A DNA stretch of 64,000 bases from Candidatus Kryptonium sp. (GTDB lineage: Bacteria; Bacteroidota; Ignavibacteria; Kryptoniales; Kryptoniaceae): NCBI GenBank assembly GCA_025060635.1, contig JANXBN010000002.1, forward strand, positions 62,001 to 126,000, written 5' to 3'. The position numbers and the translations under genes were made by a program. Of this stretch, positions 15,687 through 48,301 are shown in pieces (position 1 is the first letter of the stretch; each line of letters starts with the position of its first letter). The notes under the pieces are model-generated. The model had not been told where the DNA came from and did not search any database. It was given only the letters and a program-made list of their open reading frames with translations.

Positions 15687-16036
15687 ATGAAAAGGGTTAT
15701 TTGGTGTATTGGATGTCTTTTATTTATAACAACTTTATTCACGCAATATATGGGACAACACTTATATTCCGATGAGGTTCGTTTCTGAGACTTTACAACG
15801 CTGGGTGAAATAAGATTCAAAGAACGTAGTTCCAGATATTTTCCAAAAAAGCCGTTTTATATCAGATTTAACAGGGCAAATGAATTTGAAGGTTGGCGAA
15901 GAATGGGATTCAATGCAATGTAGCGGGATTAAATTATGTAAATTTTGATGCCGATAATTTATCAAGCGGAGTTTATTTTTATTGTTTAATAACACCTAAG
16001 AAAGTGTTTGCAGGTAAAATGGTGCTTTTAAAATAA
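15687..16036 (+). pseudogene. Remnant of a T9SS-exported protein gene (signal peptide plus broken sorting domain)
   Basis: An ATG at 15687 opens a signal-peptide-like stretch MKRVIWCIGCLLFITTLF that stops at 15788. About 80 bases later one frame reads ISDLTGQMNLKV; near 15900 the homology shifts frame and continues as VNFDADNLSSGVYFYCL then KMVLLK, ending at the TAA of 16034-16036. DLTGQ, NLSSGVYFY and the final KMVLLK are the hallmarks of a type A T9SS C-terminal sorting domain. The body that should separate signal peptide and sorting domain is missing, so the gene is decayed by deletion and frameshift. Bases 15520-15686 before it show nothing else recognisable. It ends 14 bases before the next gene. 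Confidence 0.65.
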
Positions 16037-16050
16037 AAAACTTACCTTTG

Positions 16051-18057
16051 ATGTTGAAAAGAATTCTTATCTTGATGCTCACCTTAAATATCTTAGTTAA
16101 ATCTGAACGTATTTCGTTCACCAAGTTTGGATATTCCGATGTTGTACTTCAAGGTCCTTCTCCAGTTGCAACTTGGTTTTTGAAAGTTGGACGAAATTTA
16201 AATCCCGCTTTAAGTTATATTCTCATAAACATTGATGCATCCCCAGTTCTTGATATGAAAAATTCTTTCCTGACATTTGTTGTTTGGGATAAACCTGTAT
16301 TAAGCGTTAGGTTGAGCCAAGTAGAACGGCAAATTAGGATTCCTCTTGATAAAGTTGATTTTGGTTTTTCTGACTTCATCAAACTTGAAGTATATGGGTC
16401 TTTAAAGATAAGTGACGATCGGTGCAAGGACATTGAGAGCGGGGGGCTTTATGTTACAATTGAAAAAACATCATACATTGAAGCATTTTATTTTGCTGGT
16501 AAAAAAATGAGACCAGGTATATATGACTACATTGATTATTTCAACGCAGGAGGTTTTATTATTATTCCAGATAGCTTAAGTGTAGCGGAAATAGAAGGAT
16601 ACATATGGGTCTATTCTTTTTTGAGAGAGAAAACAGGCTCTGACTTTGGGTTAGCGACTTTTAAAACTTTGCCCGATACCACCACAAATCTCGTTATTAT
16701 ATCCAGATTTGATAAGCTTCCCGAGGGATTTAAAAACCTTATCAATGGTAAATTTTTAAAAGACGATGGATTATTATATTTATTCACAAGTAAGGAAGGA
16801 AAAATTGAGAGGAAAATTTTATTTCTGATTGGCTTCAGCGACGAAGGATTAAGAAAAGCGTTAAAAGCATTTTTAAACCCCGATGTTATTTCTTCTTCCT
16901 TCAACTCGTTTCTTCTGGTTCGCGAGGCAGTAGAATTACCGAGCTTAAAACCTTTGCTTCCACCGTTTAAAATCAGCTTTAAAGATCTTGGTTTTTCGAG
17001 CACGCGCCTTGAAGGTATTGGGAATCTTGGAATGAACTATTCTTTTAGATTGTCTGATTTTGGAGTTTTACCAAATGAAATAGAATTTAACATATCCGCT
17101 GTTTACTCACCAGTTATTAAAAGAGAGGAAAGAGCCTTCTTCAATGTCTATTTCAATGGCACGCTAGTTGAAAGCAAGAGATTATCTGAAGAGGGCAGGG
17201 TGAATTATAAATTCAAAGTTGATAGATTTAATTTGATGAAGGTAAACACTATAAGAATTGAGTTTGTCTTTTATCCATCCTCTGAAGAATGTAAAAATTC
17301 TTTGTTCAAGTTTTTTGCCAAAGTTGATGATGATAATTCATTTATAGAAGTTAAAGAATCTTATAAACCAGATGAACTAAGTTTTCAATATTTCCCAGGT
17401 GTCTTCGGGTATGGCGAAACAGTTGCAATCATAAGTAAAAAAATCACTATTGAAAAGATGGAAGCATTGGCAAGAATTATTTATGTTGTTAATGCTGGGC
17501 TGAAAAATATGTATTTTTATCCAGCCGTTGTTTATTCTGATCTCGTGGACGAAGAGATTTTAAAAAATTTCAATATTGTTGGTGTGGTTGATCAAGATGA
17601 TAAATTGTTTGAAAAATTTGATAAAATACCTTTAAAACCAAAGCAAGAATTCAGAATTATAAGTGCCGGAACAGCGAGAGTCCTTTATGCGCTGTGGGAT
17701 ACAACTTCTATTGGTGTTGTTCAAATTTTTTATGGTTATGGTGATAATTCCGTTGTGTTGATTACTGGAATGGGATCTAACGCTGACAGAAGAGCCCTTG
17801 ATGTTGCTAAAGCAGTTGAGAAAAATTATGACCTTATATCTGGGAATATTGGGATCGCAGATTATGAAAAAGAATATTTCTTCAGGATTGAAAGCAGGTT
17901 GGTTAGAGTTCAATATGCTGGTGAGAAGACATTTATTGATTATTTCAATGAGTACAAGGTTTTCATCATAGGTTTAGTTTGGTTTATCGTGCTTGCATTT
18001 TTCGTTTATATTTTTATTCGCGGTAAACAACATGCAAAGAGAGTCACCAAAAGATGA
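16051..18057 (+). CDS. BcsB-like exopolysaccharide synthase periplasmic subunit
   Basis: About 668 residues with a signal peptide, a large periplasmic body and one C-terminal membrane helix (about 645-660, FIIGLVWFIVLAFFVYIFI) ending in a basic tail. This is the layout of BcsB, the membrane-anchored partner that guides nascent cellulose from BcsA through the periplasm. The segment FAGKKMRPGIYDYIDYFNAGGFIIIP near residue 150 and the alternating carbohydrate-binding-like and alpha/beta stretches fit BcsB better than any other family I know. It is somewhat shorter than typical BcsB (about 750). An in-frame TTG at 16048 exists, but ATG 16051 is preferred. It overlaps the next gene by 4 bases. The polymer need not be cellulose. 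Confidence 0.75.
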   Translation: MLKRILILMLTLNILVKSERISFTKFGYSDVVLQGPSPVATWFLKVGRNLNPALSYILINIDASPVLDMKNSFLTFVVWDKPVLSVRLSQVERQIRIPLDKVDFGFSDFIKLEVYGSLKISDDRCKDIESGGLYVTIEKTSYIEAFYFAGKKMRPGIYDYIDYFNAGGFIIIPDSLSVAEIEGYIWVYSFLREKTGSDFGLATFKTLPDTTTNLVIISRFDKLPEGFKNLINGKFLKDDGLLYLFTSKEGKIERKILFLIGFSDEGLRKALKAFLNPDVISSSFNSFLLVREAVELPSLKPLLPPFKISFKDLGFSSTRLEGIGNLGMNYSFRLSDFGVLPNEIEFNISAVYSPVIKREERAFFNVYFNGTLVESKRLSEEGRVNYKFKVDRFNLMKVNTIRIEFVFYPSSEECKNSLFKFFAKVDDDNSFIEVKESYKPDELSFQYFPGVFGYGETVAIISKKITIEKMEALARIIYVVNAGLKNMYFYPAVVYSDLVDEEILKNFNIVGVVDQDDKLFEKFDKIPLKPKQEFRIISAGTARVLYALWDTTSIGVVQIFYGYGDNSVVLITGMGSNADRRALDVAKAVEKNYDLISGNIGIADYEKEYFFRIESRLVRVQYAGEKTFIDYFNEYKVFIIGLVWFIVLAFFVYIFIRGKQHAKRVTKR

Positions 18058-19148
18058 AAAAACTTATTTTAATTATCCTCCTTGCACTTCAAAGCTGTTC
18101 AACTATCTATAGGGTTGATATAGATAAAATTCGTGAACTAAAGGTTAGAGCAACTGGTGAGTTAAAAAAACTGATTGAACAGGGATTGCCTTTCCGTCCT
18201 GATGGTTTTTGTTATTCTATTGATCTTGCAGAAATTATGCATATGGCTGTTGAAATAGATGATTCAATTATCTTTAGGCGAGCATATGAGATTATAAAGC
18301 GAAATTATATTATTCGTGATTCCTGGATAGATAGTTCTATCTTGTGGAGGTATAAGCCAGGCTCTGAGATTGAAGCTTCTGGGACAGCTGAAACAATACA
18401 CTGCGCCTATGCAATTTTTCTTGCTTATAAAAAATGGAAGGTAAAGGAATATAAGCAAGTAAGTTATTCGCTTGCAAAGGCATATTTTAAGCATGGATAT
18501 ATGATTGACTCAAATAAATTTCTTGTGAAAAATTACTTTAATTATCAAACAAGAGCACTTTCCGAGAACACTTGGATTATAAATCAAAGACCTGATTTCT
18601 TGATGGCAATCGGGATTGAGAATAATGATGCTCAAATGATTGAAAAGGCACATTTTATGTATAATGCAGTGATGCAATCTTATGTTAAGAATGGTTTTTT
18701 CCACTCAATTTATGATATTGGAATTAGAACTGTCATCCCATCGTCAAATGGATATTACTCTCCGAATGGGATTTTCCCTTTGATTTCCTCAATTGATATT
18801 GGTATTTCAATCTTTCAATTCAACAGTAAACCATCACAACAAATCTTCAAGTTCATTCATGATAACTTTGGAGAATGGAGCGATTATTATGTCTTGGTTA
18901 ATGGGGATTTTAAAGGTTTAGGCTCGGGAGATTTTGCTCTTAGCATACATTCAAAGTTAATTGACTTGTATTTTTTGCTTGGAAAACCATCAAGATACAA
19001 AATGTTAATCCAATATATCGTTGGTGATGTTTTGCCTGAGAAAATTGAAACTATCTTAAAATTAGGTCCACAGAAAGTTAGTTCATTTTATTTTGAATTA
19101 GCGGTTGCTTTAAGAACACTACAAAAACTAAGCGAAGATGCAATTTAG
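18054..19148 (+). CDS. Lipoprotein of the exopolysaccharide locus, possible alpha/alpha-barrel glycosidase-like fold
   Basis: A 364-residue protein with a lipoprotein signal (LQSC, Cys15). The rest is mostly helical, with paired helices separated by Gly/Asn/aromatic-rich loops (EASGTAETIHCAYAIFLAY at residues 105-123; RPDGFCYSIDLAEIMHMAVE near 43-62; SSNGYYSPNGIFPLIS near 225-240). This resembles six-hairpin glycosidases such as GH8, whose members include the BcsZ cellulase found in cellulose operons, but I cannot identify a confident catalytic pair. Its start overlaps the BcsB-like stop (ATGA) and its end overlaps the next gene by 11 bases, so it is translationally coupled. A role in trimming or binding the exported polymer is inference. 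Confidence 0.6.
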   Translation: MKKLILIILLALQSCSTIYRVDIDKIRELKVRATGELKKLIEQGLPFRPDGFCYSIDLAEIMHMAVEIDDSIIFRRAYEIIKRNYIIRDSWIDSSILWRYKPGSEIEASGTAETIHCAYAIFLAYKKWKVKEYKQVSYSLAKAYFKHGYMIDSNKFLVKNYFNYQTRALSENTWIINQRPDFLMAIGIENNDAQMIEKAHFMYNAVMQSYVKNGFFHSIYDIGIRTVIPSSNGYYSPNGIFPLISSIDIGISIFQFNSKPSQQIFKFIHDNFGEWSDYYVLVNGDFKGLGSGDFALSIHSKLIDLYFLLGKPSRYKMLIQYIVGDVLPEKIETILKLGPQKVSSFYFELAVALRTLQKLSEDAI

Positions 19149-19959
19149 ATTTATTAAATATCTTATTTTTGGTTTCCTGCTACTTGAGAGTGTATTTGCA
19201 GGTGCATGGACAAGGAGCGCAGGTAAAGTTTTCGTAGCGCCATATTATTACTTTTATAACGCAGAAAAGTATTACGATTTGAACTGGAGACAGAGGTATC
19301 TTAATAATGGAGGATATTTTGAAGGGCAGGGAATAGGTGTTTATTTTGAATATGGTTTAAGTGATAAGTTAAATCTGTTAGGTAATGTTCCTTTCATAGT
19401 AAATAGGTGGATTGATGATTTTACATACAAAAGTAATTACGGCTTTGGAGATATTGAACTTGGGTTCAAGGTAAAGTTTTACGATTCAAAAATCGTGCTT
19501 GGTTTGCAGACGCTTGGAATTATACCTGCTTATTCTTTGAACAAGGAACCATTGCTTGGTTATAGTGAATATGCAAGCGAGTTTAAATTTCTTCTTTCCG
19601 GAGGAATTAAACCTTTTGGTTTAAATTCATATTTCAATATTGAAACGGGATATCGTAAATTTTTTACTTCAAGAGTTGCATCACAGTTGAGGTTCCAAAT
19701 CTTATACGGTTTCAACATTGGAAGTTTAACTCAATGTTTAATTCAGCTTGATGGGGTAAATTCGGTTGGGAAAGGTTATTTTGCAACTCGCTTTAATCCA
19801 TCTGTTGAAACTGACTATGTTGAAGGTAAGTTAAGCATCTCGTTAGCGCACCGATTCACCTATAAAGCATGGTTGCAAGTTGGAGTTTTTCATGATGTTT
19901 ATGGTAGGAAAATAGGGGTTGGGCGAGGTTTCTTTATCGCATCTTGGATTGAAATTTAA
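19138..19959 (+). CDS. Outer-membrane beta-barrel protein of the exopolysaccharide locus
   Basis: A 273-residue protein with a signal peptide (YLIFGFLLLESVFAGA) followed by amphipathic strands with regular aromatic residues (VFVAPYYYFYNAEKYYDL, GVYFEYGLSDKLNLLGNVPF, LGLQTLGIIPAYSL). It ends in strand IASWIEI rather than a classic terminal Phe. Length allows a barrel of about 10-12 strands. Position and type suggest the outer-membrane passage or anchor for the polymer, analogous to the barrel of BcsC or NfrA, although the long TPR part of those proteins is missing. It overlaps the preceding gene by 11 bases. I do not recognise a named family beyond transporter-like barrels. Confidence 0.7.
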   Translation: MQFRFIKYLIFGFLLLESVFAGAWTRSAGKVFVAPYYYFYNAEKYYDLNWRQRYLNNGGYFEGQGIGVYFEYGLSDKLNLLGNVPFIVNRWIDDFTYKSNYGFGDIELGFKVKFYDSKIVLGLQTLGIIPAYSLNKEPLLGYSEYASEFKFLLSGGIKPFGLNSYFNIETGYRKFFTSRVASQLRFQILYGFNIGSLTQCLIQLDGVNSVGKGYFATRFNPSVETDYVEGKLSISLAHRFTYKAWLQVGVFHDVYGRKIGVGRGFFIASWIEI

Positions 19960-19975
19960 TCTATTAAACAAAACT

Positions 19976-21850
19976 ATGATTTCTGCCCCTGAAAAATCCG
20001 TTCGTAGTAAAACAATAGCTGAATATCTGCTTCAGAAAAATTTGATCACGATTGAGCAAATAGAGGAGATTGAAAGGTTTCGTGCTGAAATTGGCTGGTC
20101 ATTTGCAAAGATATGTTTAACTTATGGTTATGTTAGTAGGCAGAAATGGAGTGAAGTTTTAAAAGAGATCGGTTTTGAACTTGTTGATTTGAAAATGGAA
20201 AAAATTGATAAAGGTGTGGTTTCATATCTCAATCTACTTGTTATGGATCAATATCTTGGAGTTCCTATAAGAAAGGAAAATGGTAAAGTTATTGTTGCAA
20301 TGGTTGATCCCACTGATATTGAGTTTCTTGCTATTGTTAGGAAGCTTTTCAAAAGCGATGTGGAAGTGATTGCAGCAATGGATGTGGATATTATTTGGGT
20401 TTTGCATAAATATCTTGGTCCTCCGTTTTGCAGAGTTGCAATCTATAATTTATTGTGGAAGGATCCAGATAGATCTGCTGTCATTACGATAACAGCAACA
20501 CAAACATTTGTAGTTGTAACTGTTATAACTCTTTATTTGCTTTACTTTTCATTTAGTCCTATATCAGCCTTGATTTTTGTAAATATAATCATCGGTTTAC
20601 TTTACTTGTTTTCAATTCTTTTCAAATTTTTTCTTTCTCTGGTTGGTGCGAGGTATGAACTTCAGGAAGCTGTTTCAGCCGAGGAGATAAAAGCGATTTC
20701 AAATGATGAATTGCCTGTATATACGATTTTATTGCCTGTTTATAAAGAACCTAAAGTAATTTCAAAACTTGTTGAAAGTATAAGCCGGCTTGACTATCCG
20801 AGATTTAAACTTGATGTAAAGCTTTTATTGGAAGAGGATGATATTGAAACGATTGAAGCTATAAAAACAATTGATTTTCCAGCTATATTTGAGCCTCTTG
20901 TTGTCCCATCCGAAGTGCCCAAGACAAAGCCGAAAGCATGCGATTACGGTCTTCTTTTTGCCCGTGGTGTGTATTTAACAATTTATGACGCTGAAGATGT
21001 GCCTGATGCAGATCAACTTAAAAAAGTTGTTGCGCTATTTAAAAAACTCCCTGAAGAATATATCTGCGTGCAATGTGCTTTGAATTATTACAACAGAGAA
21101 GAGAACCTTTTAACGAGAATGTTTACGCTTGAATATTCATATTGGTTTGATTACATGCTTCCTGGTCTTAATAGGTTGGGTTTGCCGATTCCTCTCGGTG
21201 GGACAAGTAATCATTTCAAAAGAGACAAACTTGAAGAACTTGCTGGTTGGGATCCGTTCAATGTCACAGAGGATGCAGATCTCGGTATAAGAGCTTATGC
21301 AAAAGGATATAAAGTTGCGGTTCTTGACTCAACAACATATGAAGAGGCTAATAAATCAGTAAAAAATTGGATAAGACAAAGGTCAAGATGGATAAAAGGT
21401 TATATTCAAACTTATCTTGTTCATATGAGGCATCCCATTGAGCTTATTAAGAAAACCGGTTTGAAAGGGTTCATAGGATTTCAGCTTTTCGTCGGAGGAA
21501 CTCCGTTTGTATTTTTAGCAAATCCAGTAATGTGGTTTATGTTTATTATATGGCTTTTAACGGAATCTGAAATTATAAGTATGATCTTCCCGGATTGGGT
21601 AATGTATGTTTCAATCTTTAATTTTCTTTTTGGGAACGCAATTATGATTTACATGAATATGATGTCTGTTTTCAGGCGGAAGTATTATAATCTTCTTCCA
21701 TTTGCTCTTTTAAATCCATTATATTGGATTTTGCATTCAATAGCTTCATATAAAGCGTTAGGTCAGTTAATTTCAAATCCGTTCTATTGGGAAAAAACAG
21801 AGCATGGGATAAGTGAAGTTTTCAAACATATTCATCATCCGAGGAAATGA
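19976..21850 (+). CDS. Family 2 glycosyltransferase with N-terminal MshEN/GspE-N-like domain
   Basis: A 624-residue inner-membrane glycan synthase. Residues about 10-165 match the GspE N-terminal/MshEN fold: IAEYLLQKNLITIEQIEEI, then the ligand-side SRQKWSEVL repeat, then GKVIVAMVDPTD. Two membrane helices follow (about 170-225), then a processive GT-A domain with DAED (338-341), TED (431-433) and QRSRW (468-472), the cellulose-synthase-type substrate and product motifs, and about four C-terminal helices. NfrB of E. coli combines the same two domains, with MshEN at the other end. In-frame TTG 19919 lies inside the upstream gene; ATG 19976 is the sensible start. The Arg and Gly positions of the canonical MshEN c-di-GMP motif are not conserved, so regulation by c-di-GMP is uncertain. 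Confidence 0.85.
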   Translation: MISAPEKSVRSKTIAEYLLQKNLITIEQIEEIERFRAEIGWSFAKICLTYGYVSRQKWSEVLKEIGFELVDLKMEKIDKGVVSYLNLLVMDQYLGVPIRKENGKVIVAMVDPTDIEFLAIVRKLFKSDVEVIAAMDVDIIWVLHKYLGPPFCRVAIYNLLWKDPDRSAVITITATQTFVVVTVITLYLLYFSFSPISALIFVNIIIGLLYLFSILFKFFLSLVGARYELQEAVSAEEIKAISNDELPVYTILLPVYKEPKVISKLVESISRLDYPRFKLDVKLLLEEDDIETIEAIKTIDFPAIFEPLVVPSEVPKTKPKACDYGLLFARGVYLTIYDAEDVPDADQLKKVVALFKKLPEEYICVQCALNYYNREENLLTRMFTLEYSYWFDYMLPGLNRLGLPIPLGGTSNHFKRDKLEELAGWDPFNVTEDADLGIRAYAKGYKVAVLDSTTYEEANKSVKNWIRQRSRWIKGYIQTYLVHMRHPIELIKKTGLKGFIGFQLFVGGTPFVFLANPVMWFMFIIWLLTESEIISMIFPDWVMYVSIFNFLFGNAIMIYMNMMSVFRRKYYNLLPFALLNPLYWILHSIASYKALGQLISNPFYWEKTEHGISEVFKHIHHPRK

Positions 21851-23424
21851 AAAGTTGGGTTATAATCGCTATATTATCGCTTTTTATTTCCGTTTACTAT
21901 TTTACTTTAGGTTTGATGTTTATTTCGGCAGATTACTATAATCCTGAATCTTTTTTTCTTATTGAGAAAGGGTTGCTTGCATTAAAAGGGAATCCACCTC
22001 GGCTTGAAAATATAGGTTTAATTTATCCACCTATACCTTTCTTTGTGCTTTTTCCTTTCATTTTTATAAATCCAATTATTGCTCCGCTTTTCGCTTCATC
22101 ACTTACTATGGGATTGTTAACGGCATTTATTGCTTACAGGATCTTGAAGAAAAACTTGTCGTTTGTATTTATTGTTTTTATGCTGTTGATATTTCTATTC
22201 AATCCAGTTATTCTATATGCTGGTTCTTCAGGTAGCAGTGCTTATCTTTATTTAACCTTTCTCACCTTGTTTTACCTTTTCATTTTTGAGTATTATGAAA
22301 GAAATGTTAGTTTTTATCTTGCTATTGCTGGAGTTTTTATTGGTGTTCTTGTTTTTATAAGGTATGAAATTATCTTCATTCTTATTTTTTGGTTATTCGT
22401 TAATGCTATCCTCACAATTGAAACAACACTTGAGGAAGGTGTAAGCTACAGAAATTTTTTTGAATTGCTTAAAAAATTGCCGGCATATAGACAAACATTC
22501 ATTCGCAGATTGTTTGCGATTTATTTGATGATTTTCATCCCACCCGTTGCTGGTTTTTTATTTTGGTGTTATCTAAACTGGCTTTTTACTTCAAATCCTT
22601 TTCATTTTATAAACAGCCCATATTCATATTTTAGAACCTTGAGCACTTATGTGCTTTATAATCCATCATTAATTGAATTTAAGGGAAATGCTTTCAAAAG
22701 TTTGATCTATGTTTTGAATGAAATTTTAATTTACATGCCCGCATATATTGTCTTAATTTTTGTTTTCACACGACGACTTTTCTTTTCTCTTGCGTTGATG
22801 GCTCCAATAGTTGCTTTGTCTATAATTTCTTATTTAGGTTTGTCTCTTATGAATGTTGATTTTTATGCTCCTTTTATACTTATCGCTTTTGTGACAATGA
22901 TTTATGCATGCGAAAAGAAACCCAGTTTGCGGAAAAGTTTGGTAATGGGTATTTTTCTTATCTTAATTTTGTTTTCCTTCTTTTCGGGATATTACAAACT
23001 TAAAAGCTCATTTTATCCTGAAGAGCGGAATTTTGCAAAGGTACTTCTTGGAGGAAATCCAGATAAACTTTTCTTTGAAGAAAGGAAAGTTGCGGAATTT
23101 TTGAAACGAAACGCGTCTTTCAACGATATCATTTTAATGGACGATGCAACGGGCTTTCCAATAATTGTTTTCTATGGAAATCCTAAAAATTTTATTCTTC
23201 CGTATCAGTATGAGTTTGCCTCTGTTGTTGAAAGACCGGAAGTTTACGCAGATTATTTAATTCTTTACAATCCAGAAAAATTTGAAGGTAAGCGTTATCT
23301 GATTAATCAAAGGCATCCGAATCTTTTCTATTCAGGTTCAAAAGAACTTTCACTTGTTTATAGCACTGATAATTGGAGAATTTTCAAATCAACTTATAGG
23401 AAGCGTGCGATCACAGAGAAGTGA
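21847..23424 (+). CDS. Polytopic membrane protein, GT-C-like (ArnT/GT39-type), of the exopolysaccharide locus
   Basis: A 525-residue protein with about ten hydrophobic segments in the first 390 residues and a soluble C-terminal domain. An acidic pair DY (SADYYNPES, near residue 30) in the first periplasmic loop and the early LLALKGNPPRLENIGLIYPP segment resemble GT-C glycosyltransferases that use lipid-linked sugars, such as ArnT or PMT relatives. I do not see enough to assign a family firmly. It overlaps the GT2 gene by 4 bases (ATGA), so it belongs to the same operon and may add a side group or act in transport. The C-terminal part (FNDIILMDDATGFPIIVFYG, near 430) is typical of these membrane glycosyltransferases. 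Confidence 0.65.
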   Translation: MKSWVIIAILSLFISVYYFTLGLMFISADYYNPESFFLIEKGLLALKGNPPRLENIGLIYPPIPFFVLFPFIFINPIIAPLFASSLTMGLLTAFIAYRILKKNLSFVFIVFMLLIFLFNPVILYAGSSGSSAYLYLTFLTLFYLFIFEYYERNVSFYLAIAGVFIGVLVFIRYEIIFILIFWLFVNAILTIETTLEEGVSYRNFFELLKKLPAYRQTFIRRLFAIYLMIFIPPVAGFLFWCYLNWLFTSNPFHFINSPYSYFRTLSTYVLYNPSLIEFKGNAFKSLIYVLNEILIYMPAYIVLIFVFTRRLFFSLALMAPIVALSIISYLGLSLMNVDFYAPFILIAFVTMIYACEKKPSLRKSLVMGIFLILILFSFFSGYYKLKSSFYPEERNFAKVLLGGNPDKLFFEERKVAEFLKRNASFNDIILMDDATGFPIIVFYGNPKNFILPYQYEFASVVERPEVYADYLILYNPEKFEGKRYLINQRHPNLFYSGSKELSLVYSTDNWRIFKSTYRKRAITEK

Positions 23425-46558: not shown

Positions 46559-46630
46559 TCAAATAAGAATTAAAAACGAAAGCCACAGATTGTGGCGAAA
46601 TTTAAAACAAAACAATTAGTGGAGGTAGCC

Positions 46631-48301
46631 ATGAAAAGGTTAATACTAACTTTATTTTTTATTTCAATTTTTAGTTCCCTTCTTATTGCTCAAGTGACAA
46701 TTGGGTGGCATCAATCGCCTATTGAAGTTGATGCTGGTGTAGCAGGACAGCAAATTTTTGTGGTTTTGAAAAATAGTTATAGCGCTCAGGGTGTTTGGAG
46801 CTTTCAATTTGATATCACATCTACTTCAATAACATTGAACACGGGTAATGTTGATTTGTATACAAACTTAAGCACGAACTTTTTGTATTCCGAGTCAAAT
46901 ATCACGAACGGGGTTAGAGTAATAGTTTATGGTAGAACTAATAGTAGAATGTTTCAGCCCGGTTTTAATTCAAGCGTTATAGTCGTAACTTTACCGACAT
47001 TAAGCGCTGGCTCGTATAGTGTGACGCTTAGTAATGCTTCCGCAATCATCCGAAATTACCCAGGTGGTTCGTCACCCGCAATAGTTACTCCAACTTTAAG
47101 CCCAGCTACAATAAATATAACAGCTTCTACCTTTGTGCCCCCGACTTCTTCGCCAACATTTACACCAACTGGTTATCCATCAACTGTATCACGCAAATAT
47201 GGGGATATAGATTGGGATAATAATGTCAATATTGTTGATATTACTTCTCTTGCTGATGTTTTAGTTGGAAATTATACCAATGTTATTGTAAATGATGCAA
47301 CATATAATTTTGATCCACCATCTGGTCCAAATAATAGATATTTCTATCAATCAAGCGCTTCTGAATCCCCAATTCAATATGATAACCAGAATCCAGATAA
47401 TGCAGATAGAACAGCTGCAGATGTCCACGGTGGTGATGGAACACTTAATCTTATGGATCTTGCAACGCTTGAAGACGCTGTTGTAAGTGGTGTTTGGCCA
47501 AGTTATGCGATAAGTGCGGTCGCTGGGAGACCTGTGTTTAAATTTAACGATAAGGGTTTCGGAAATGGTGTGGTGATTGCTAAATTTGGTGAAGGTATTC
47601 AAAAACTTAATGCCGATGCTAAACTTAAATTTGAATTTTTCAATCCGGGTGGGAAAGCAAGCAAAATAAGAGTTAAACTTGAAAATAGCGAAGCTTTACT
47701 AAAAGGACTTCAGATTGAATTAACATCTTCAGTTTTACCAGGAAAACTTGATATATGGAAGATGCCAGATGCTGGTAAGTTAGCAGTTGCCTGGAAGCGA
47801 AATGAATTTAACAAAATTGTAATTGTTGTTTACGCTGTGGGTGGTGAATATATTAAAACTGGAGAGAGTGTTTTATTGACAATTGTCGCTCCTAATGTTA
47901 CTGTTGAACAATTCTTGAACGCTGAACCTAATATCATAGCTAGCGTCAACAATTTCGGAAGCGATTTAAATTATAATGCTTATTCAATTGACGAGGTTTT
48001 GCCACTTGATTATATGTTATATCAAAACTATCCAAATCCATTTAACCCTGGAACAGAGATAAAGTTTGATATCCCAGAGTATTCCGCTGTTAAAATAATA
48101 GTTTGGAATGTATTAGGGCAGAAGGTGAAAACGCTTATTGATGCGAATCTTGATCCTGGAAGAAAGACAGTTAAGTGGGATGGCAGAGATGATAATGGTA
48201 ATTATGTTGGCTCAGGAGTTTATTTCTACACTATGTATGCGAGATCTCTTGATAGCGATGGAGAATTCACAATGACAAGGAAAGCGATATTAATTAAGTA
48301 A
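46631..48301 (+). CDS. T9SS-exported protein with cohesin-like and dockerin-like modules
   Basis: 556 residues from ATG 46631, preceded by GGAGGTAG. Signal peptide (LILTLFFISIFSSLLIAQ), then a cohesin-like beta domain (about 20-150), then a dockerin-like pair of calcium loops: GDIDWDNNVNIVDITSLADVLVGN near 190-215 and GGDGTLNLMDLATLEDAVVSG near 267-290. A second beta domain follows, and the C-terminus (about 467-556) is a type A T9SS sorting domain with NYPNPFNPGTEI and GSGVYFYTMYA. It should cross the outer membrane through SprA and be attached to or released from the surface. The ligand is unknown. Confidence 0.8.
   Translation: MKRLILTLFFISIFSSLLIAQVTIGWHQSPIEVDAGVAGQQIFVVLKNSYSAQGVWSFQFDITSTSITLNTGNVDLYTNLSTNFLYSESNITNGVRVIVYGRTNSRMFQPGFNSSVIVVTLPTLSAGSYSVTLSNASAIIRNYPGGSSPAIVTPTLSPATINITASTFVPPTSSPTFTPTGYPSTVSRKYGDIDWDNNVNIVDITSLADVLVGNYTNVIVNDATYNFDPPSGPNNRYFYQSSASESPIQYDNQNPDNADRTAADVHGGDGTLNLMDLATLEDAVVSGVWPSYAISAVAGRPVFKFNDKGFGNGVVIAKFGEGIQKLNADAKLKFEFFNPGGKASKIRVKLENSEALLKGLQIELTSSVLPGKLDIWKMPDAGKLAVAWKRNEFNKIVIVVYAVGGEYIKTGESVLLTIVAPNVTVEQFLNAEPNIIASVNNFGSDLNYNAYSIDEVLPLDYMLYQNYPNPFNPGTEIKFDIPEYSAVKIIVWNVLGQKVKTLIDANLDPGRKTVKWDGRDDNGNYVGSGVYFYTMYARSLDSDGEFTMTRKAILIK

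Follow-up and report, generated by a model that had tools for sequence, protein, structure and literature searches.

What do five closely packed genes at positions 16,051–23,424 of a Candidatus Kryptonium genome segment make, and how is their product controlled? The segment, called the window below, comprises 64,000 nucleotides (assembly GCA_025060635.1, contig JANXBN010000002.1, positions 62,001–126,000), and all coordinates refer to it unless a locus is named. Five plus-strand open reading frames, each with an ATG start, fill the region. They encode proteins of 668, 364, 273, 624 and 525 amino acids and are spaced by −4, −11, +16 and −4 bases, as reported in a first-pass annotation made from the sequence. 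The genes form a real and coherent operon for exopolysaccharide synthesis and export, of a kind that is known but poorly characterised. Very probably the block builds and exports a sugar polymer. As a complete explanation we propose a synthase-dependent exopolysaccharide system in which the MshEN domain of the synthase would be a structural part and control would come from elsewhere. We assign this reading a probability of about 0.72.

The first gene (16,051–18,057) encodes a BcsB-family periplasmic protein with a signal peptide and one C-terminal transmembrane helix (residues 638–656). The protein matched PF03170 with 62.5 bits (curated Pfam cut-off 21). A direct search of the PDB sequences with the single sequence gave no match, but the profile of the family (19 relatives) matched the solved BcsB chains 9fmt and 6yg8 with E = 1.3e-9 over profile positions 36–389. 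The same profile aligned with the Listeria protein PssD over 567 columns (hhalign probability 99.3%, E = 1.5e-20). Thus, the likeness to BcsB, on which the first-pass annotation had staked its proposal, holds.

The fourth gene (19,976–21,850) encodes a glycosyltransferase of family GT2 with an N-terminal MshEN domain, followed by the GT2 core and transmembrane helices. The start at 19,976 was favoured over a TTG at 19,919 because it avoids an overlap with the preceding barrel gene. Pfam recognised MshEN (PF05157) at residues 14–148 with 38.7 bits against a cut-off of 23.1, and GT2 families including Glyco_trans_2_3 were also above cut-off, in agreement with the first description of this synthase. 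The motifs of processive GT2 enzymes (D, DxD-type, TED and Q(Q/R)xRW) are kept as EEDD, YDAED, TEDAD and RQRSRW across 90 aligned sequences, and the whole-length identity of the synthase is at least 50% in other classes. On actinobacterial and rhizobial plasmids (L113, L114 and L115) GT2 proteins of about 40–54% identity to the synthase core were observed; their match covers the GT2 core and leaves out the MshEN part.

The association of these genes extends far beyond the window. A scan of the genome collection with the synthase alone yielded 80 named loci with 50–59% identity in Bacteroidota, Ignavibacteria, HR37 and Aquificota. A BcsB gene lies upstream of the synthase in almost every case, and a gene for a GT-C-like membrane protein follows immediately downstream. 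The exceptions are loci at contig ends or in broken assemblies; the Aquificota locus has a piece of the GT-C gene on the other side of BcsB. Since the trio is conserved in about 80 loci, at the stated identity for the synthase and at 22–33% for BcsB, it is not a product of chance. A barrel gene is inserted between BcsB and the synthase in Spirosomataceae, Flavobacteriaceae, Ignavibacteria, HR37, Aquificota and the window genus. The system is not limited to thermophiles bearing a type IX secretion system (T9SS), to which it had first been tied. The trio is also present on two plasmids, from Geobacillus (CP128455) and from Hyphomicrobiales (CP131057). On the latter a GH113 gene adjoins the trio, which suggests that the hydrolase of the cluster is exchangeable. 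The Geobacillus plasmid is typed as conjugative. On it, BcsB, the MshEN-GT2 synthase and a GT39-like gene come after a gene for a sugar-phosphate nucleotidyltransferase (L111, CP128455.1, 8,540–15,337). This cluster lies between mobile elements and is a Gram-positive version of the system that is apparently mobile.

Within the phylum, an even draw of 296 genomes was searched with thresholds of E ≤ 1e-60 for the synthase and E ≤ 1e-10 for BcsB. The synthase was found in eight genomes, and BcsB was its neighbour in the same eight. In the window genus, genomes G001, G004 and G005 possess all five genes in the window order, and G002 has them in one block with a changed order. The system is missing from G006, and the assembly of G003 is too fragmented to judge. 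The expectation that the genes stay together in relatives was therefore borne out for the widely adjacent trio and, within the genus, for the five genes. It failed for the lipoprotein outside the genus, and a wide distribution of the five-gene set as such was ruled out.

The MshEN domain of the window synthase (20,015–20,419) has lost the residues for binding of cyclic di-GMP (c-di-GMP). The ligand motif of MshEN, RLGxx[LVI][LVI]xxG[LVI][LVI]xxxxLxxxLxxQ, occurs twice (PMC5013675). We counted six key residues per motif. The window synthase keeps 0/6 and 1/6 of them, and all 81 distinct synthases of the Fibrobacteres-Chlorobi-Bacteroidetes (FCB) lineage (73 from Bacteroidota, 3 from Ignavibacteria and 5 from the window genus) keep 0–2 of 6 per motif. 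RLG and most of the key Leu and Gln residues are missing from both motifs in 81/81 cases. The 78 "other" sequences in the scoring table include five duplicates of genus sequences. In contrast, 3–6 key residues per motif are kept in four non-FCB synthases, namely those of the Geobacillus plasmid, HR37, Aquificota and the Hyphomicrobiales plasmid. The FCB synthases form one clade in the tree (support 99/99), so the residues were probably lost once in an ancestor and not many times. L145 belongs to the same class and is more divergent; not among the scored sequences, it was placed on a long branch outside this clade. The first-pass annotation had compared the domain with MshEN of NfrB-type synthases; it does not carry the residues that bind c-di-GMP. 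We found no description of this FCB-wide loss in the literature searched and regard it as new.

The genomic context was examined for c-di-GMP signalling. Neither EAL nor PilZ domains gave a match in the genome of the window species. Its one GGDEF-domain protein has no GG(D/E)EF motif, and neither do the counterparts of this protein, which are present in four sister genomes. In Bacteroidota loci, a gene for a membrane histidine kinase is located directly upstream of the cluster, and response regulator genes adjoin it in several Bacteroidota members and in Ignavibacteria. These two-component genes may have replaced control by c-di-GMP.

The fifth gene (21,847–23,424) encodes a polytopic protein with a C-terminal periplasmic domain. 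Its AlphaFold2 model had a predicted local distance difference test score (pLDDT) of 88. Foldseek returned DPY19 as the best fold (E = 3.2e-6), followed by the oligosaccharyltransferase OST/STT3, PglB, AftA, PMT and ArnT. These are GT-C enzymes, as the first reading of the gene had anticipated. Two homologues of the protein matched PMT_2 (3.7e-5), and a profile of the protein gave no match in the PDB. GT-C enzymes carry a catalytic acid in the first external loop. In the model, the GT-C-like fold has an acidic residue in this loop. The nearly invariant E34, just after the first transmembrane helix, would occupy the position of the catalytic acid.

The second gene (18,054–19,148) encodes a lipoprotein, and the lipobox-like sequence LQSC at residues 12–15 agrees with this earlier assignment. 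It is a distant relative of the (alpha/alpha)6-type family GH8. The direct match to GH8 is weak (E = 0.015, 14.7 bits against a Pfam cut-off of 24), and homologues within its alignment score up to 2.2e-46. A search of the PDB sequences with the single lipoprotein sequence gave no match. The protein differs at the aligned positions which we take to be those of the GH8 catalytic Glu and Asp, in a locally uncertain alignment; enzymatic activity is therefore uncertain. In G004 the lipoprotein gene (L090:8,497–9,435) is apparently damaged, with the signal-peptide start joined directly to the region near residue 80. In another group of the phylum, a gene for 717–740 amino acids, a GT2 gene (about 500 amino acids) and a GH8 lipoprotein gene stand in a row (L130:636–5,568 and L131:3,851–8,673), possibly a further GT2/GH8 exopolysaccharide cluster.

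The third gene (19,138–19,959) was correctly recognised before as coding for an outer-membrane beta-barrel. The AlphaFold2 model (pLDDT 86) shows 12 strands, and the protein is a candidate exit pore. The COG4313 channel 4rl8 was the best Foldseek match (E = 1.1e-9, TM-score 0.71), with FapF next. A Pfam scan of all 11 barrels gave no match, and neither Pfam nor the model revealed a tetratricopeptide repeat (TPR) in the window barrel.

Besides the relationship between the lipoprotein and GH8, the first-pass annotation missed a decayed CotH gene upstream of the block and a CotH/HlyD/VTC/DUF4956 module in sister species. The remnant (15,712–16,033, plus strand) is frameshifted and consists of N-terminal and C-terminal sorting-tail fragments of a CotH-T9SS gene. 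These fragments are 76% and 62% identical to the CotH protein of G005 (930 amino acids; tblastn, E = 3e-20 and 3e-8), and about 790 middle codons are absent. Longer CotH genes are present in G001, G002, G004 and G005. No CotH or VTC gene was found elsewhere in the genome of the window species. In G005 and G001 nine genes run in the order CotH-BcsB-lipoprotein-barrel-GT2-GT-C-HlyD-like-VTC-DUF4956, no more than 14 bases apart (L089:2,672–15,329 and L091:6,243–18,954). The order in G002 is BcsB-GT2-GT-C-HlyD-CotH-lipoprotein-barrel, plus a broken VTC gene. Pfam matched the HlyD-like counterparts of G001 and G002 and did not match the G005 gene itself. The CotH protein of the sister species carries a T9SS sorting tail. 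The extra module, whose full form occurs twice in one genus and thus represents a small sample, is presumably regulatory. Elsewhere in the window (46,592–48,301) a protein of 569 amino acids has a T9SS tail of the FlgD-like/CHU_C kind and weakly matches the C terminus of PorU, which supports the presence of a T9SS in the host. The five-gene block itself is isolated; its upstream neighbour is an opposite-strand gene for 2202 amino acids, and a DJ-1/PfpI gene follows 107 bases downstream.

In Gram-positive bacteria, CotH, polyphosphate polymerase and DUF4956 are known to accompany pel loci as accessory genes (PMC7112168, PMC12345266). Kinase-based control was suggested for these loci since streptococci could not use the canonical c-di-GMP mechanism (PMC7112168). 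In the analyses of the later paper the three-gene arrangement was not found outside pel loci (PMC12345266). In G001 and G005, CotH, a polyphosphate-polymerase-type VTC and DUF4956 likewise share one run with synthase genes. However, the system here is of the BcsB/MshEN-GT2 type and includes HlyD, CotH has a T9SS tail, and the synthase genes are located between CotH and VTC-DUF4956. The linkage of a BcsB/MshEN-GT2 system to CotH/HlyD/VTC/DUF4956 was not described in the literature searched and appears to be new.

The system as such had been called undescribed. This does not hold, because the pairing of BcsB with a T2SSE_N/GT2 protein is that of the published sfz/sfb ("xag-like") cluster of stalk-forming Fe(II) oxidisers (PMC8250860, PMC4643136). 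The genes sfz1–sfz6 of Zetaproteobacteria and sfb1–sfb4 (CDS9–12) of Ferriphaselus are the proposed cluster for the stalk exopolysaccharide (PMC8250860, PMC4643136). By published domains and lengths only, the BcsB-like Sfz1 is followed by Sfz2, which combines an N-terminal domain of the type II secretion system/EpsE type (IPR007831) with GT2. The domain composition described for this cassette (PMC8250860) is found in the window and in the sister genomes, and the lengths of its genes and its CotH member also agree. The other members are Sfz3 (about 500 amino acids), Sfz4 (a putative glycosidase of about 330 amino acids), Sfz5 (about 315 amino acids) and Sfz6, a CotH protein. Judged from size and order in the published descriptions, Sfz3 would correspond to the GT-C protein and Sfz5 to the barrel; neither was assigned a function (PMC8250860). 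The clusters differ in gene order, and Sfz4 was described as GH10-like, whereas the lipoprotein is GH8-like. Moreover, control by c-di-GMP was proposed for sfz (PMC8250860), in contrast to the eroded MshEN motif in FCB.

Other known systems are less similar. The sfb genes resemble xagBCD of the Xanthomonas xagABCD operon (PMC4643136), and deletions of xagA/xagB reduce biofilm in an rpfG mutant (PMC3609779). In the literature searched no BcsB is named within that operon, which is compared here by description only. Listeria pssA-E is a looser analogue, which shares a BcsB ortholog, PssD, and a non-BcsA GT2, and its exopolysaccharide formation was demonstrated genetically (PMC4125290). There a separate degenerate GGDEF protein, PssE, senses c-di-GMP and no MshEN is found. 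The GT-C protein has no detectable homology to PssA (probability 0.3%), and the window cluster contains neither a PssA homologue nor a GGDEF gene, which characterise Listeria pss and Bacillus yda. The Bacillus ydaJKLMN genes are grouped with pssA-E as a related known system. A Listeria record filed as a plasmid (L116, NZ_CP030101) carries the pss locus; at 2.9 Mb it is evidently a chromosome. NfrB/NfrA of E. coli (NGR polysaccharide) likewise combines GT2, MshEN and an outer-membrane partner, but MshEN is C-terminal, NfrA is a TPR barrel and BcsB is missing (PMC8669469). With 16.1 bits against the NCBIfam equivalog cut-off of 1170 and its N-terminal MshEN domain, the window synthase was rejected as a member of the NfrB type to which it had been assigned. 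The literature search gave nothing relevant on Kryptonia, type IX secretion and exopolysaccharide together.

The product might alternatively be plain cellulose from a divergent BcsA/BcsB pair, since solved BcsA chains can be aligned with the synthase (E about 6e-10), which also has a BcsB partner. We consider this improbable. The synthase reached 57.9 bits against the CelA equivalog cut-off of 699, almost the same as its PgaC score (55.4 bits). As noted in the first-pass annotation, the five genes include no PilZ, BcsC or BcsA. With PilZ absent and a barrel without TPR, a BcsA-type cellulose synthase was rejected, and to our knowledge a GT-C partner is not a component of cellulose systems. Equally improbable is that the GT-C and GT2 enzymes make no free exopolysaccharide and instead build a glycan that is linked to proteins or lipids such as T9SS cargo or lipopolysaccharide. 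A protein C-mannosyltransferase and oligosaccharyltransferases are among the nearest GT-C folds, and the sister-species operon includes the T9SS-tailed CotH protein. However, the only role in which we know BcsB is that of partner to processive polymer synthases, and the trio also resides on a plasmid of a Gram-positive bacterium, which has neither a T9SS nor an outer membrane. Slightly easier to accept, but still unlikely, is that c-di-GMP activates the system in the usual way, in the manner of NfrB or sfz, through an MshEN switch that has diverged and still works. Pfam still recognises the domain, the non-FCB homologues retain most motif residues, and single changes in MshE or NfrB weaken function and do not abolish it (PMC5013675, PMC8669469). 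Against such a switch stand the loss of RLG and most key Leu and Gln residues from both motifs in all 81 FCB synthases scored and a genome with no EAL or PilZ and a sole, degenerate GGDEF protein.

Several observations weigh against the synthase-dependent system with a structural MshEN domain that we favour. The polymer is a prediction from the genes, and no nucleotide-sugar gene in the cluster names the sugar. The barrel has 12 strands and is missing from the clusters of Mucilaginibacter and Chitinophagaceae; a role as pore is therefore not universal. The lipoprotein belongs to the cluster in the window genus only. The decay of CotH in the window indicates either that the system can do without CotH or that it is itself in decay in the window species. 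In MshE, a change of Arg or Gln lowers the affinity less than about fivefold (PMC5013675), so that erosion of the motif alone leaves weak c-di-GMP binding possible. The degenerate GGDEF protein might itself act as a receptor.

In the proposed exopolysaccharide system, the GT2 synthase would use a cytoplasmic nucleotide sugar to polymerise the backbone, and the chain would be extruded through the transmembrane helices of the synthase itself. In the periplasm the chain would be received and guided by BcsB. The GT-C protein may add side-chain or terminal sugars on the periplasmic face from a polyprenyl-phosphate-linked sugar, and the GH8-like lipoprotein may process or bind the chain. The putative barrel would form its exit in the outer membrane. 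MshEN would persist as a structural part of the synthase, its c-di-GMP binding gone in the FCB lineage. If so, control must come from elsewhere, possibly from the linked two-component genes in Bacteroidota and Ignavibacteria and, in the window genus, from the CotH/HlyD/VTC/DUF4956 module, which the window species would have lost. More tentatively, a single ancestral erosion of the MshEN ligand site may have made a widespread FCB branch of BcsB/MshEN-GT2 machines independent of c-di-GMP, with control passing to the two-component genes or, in the window genus, to a CotH kinase exported by the T9SS, together with HlyD, VTC and DUF4956. As part of this tentative proposal, the module might be of the same kind as that at pel loci in bacteria without canonical c-di-GMP control.

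One type of machine with a GT-C partner would thus tie together the stalk genes of iron oxidisers, the cluster of Bacteroidota and Ignavibacteria and a Gram-positive plasmid. The eroded FCB domain provides a direct test case for the role of MshEN after c-di-GMP binding stops. Because CotH/VTC/DUF4956 recurs beside an unrelated synthase whose c-di-GMP sensor is eroded, the role of this module can be tested in a second setting.

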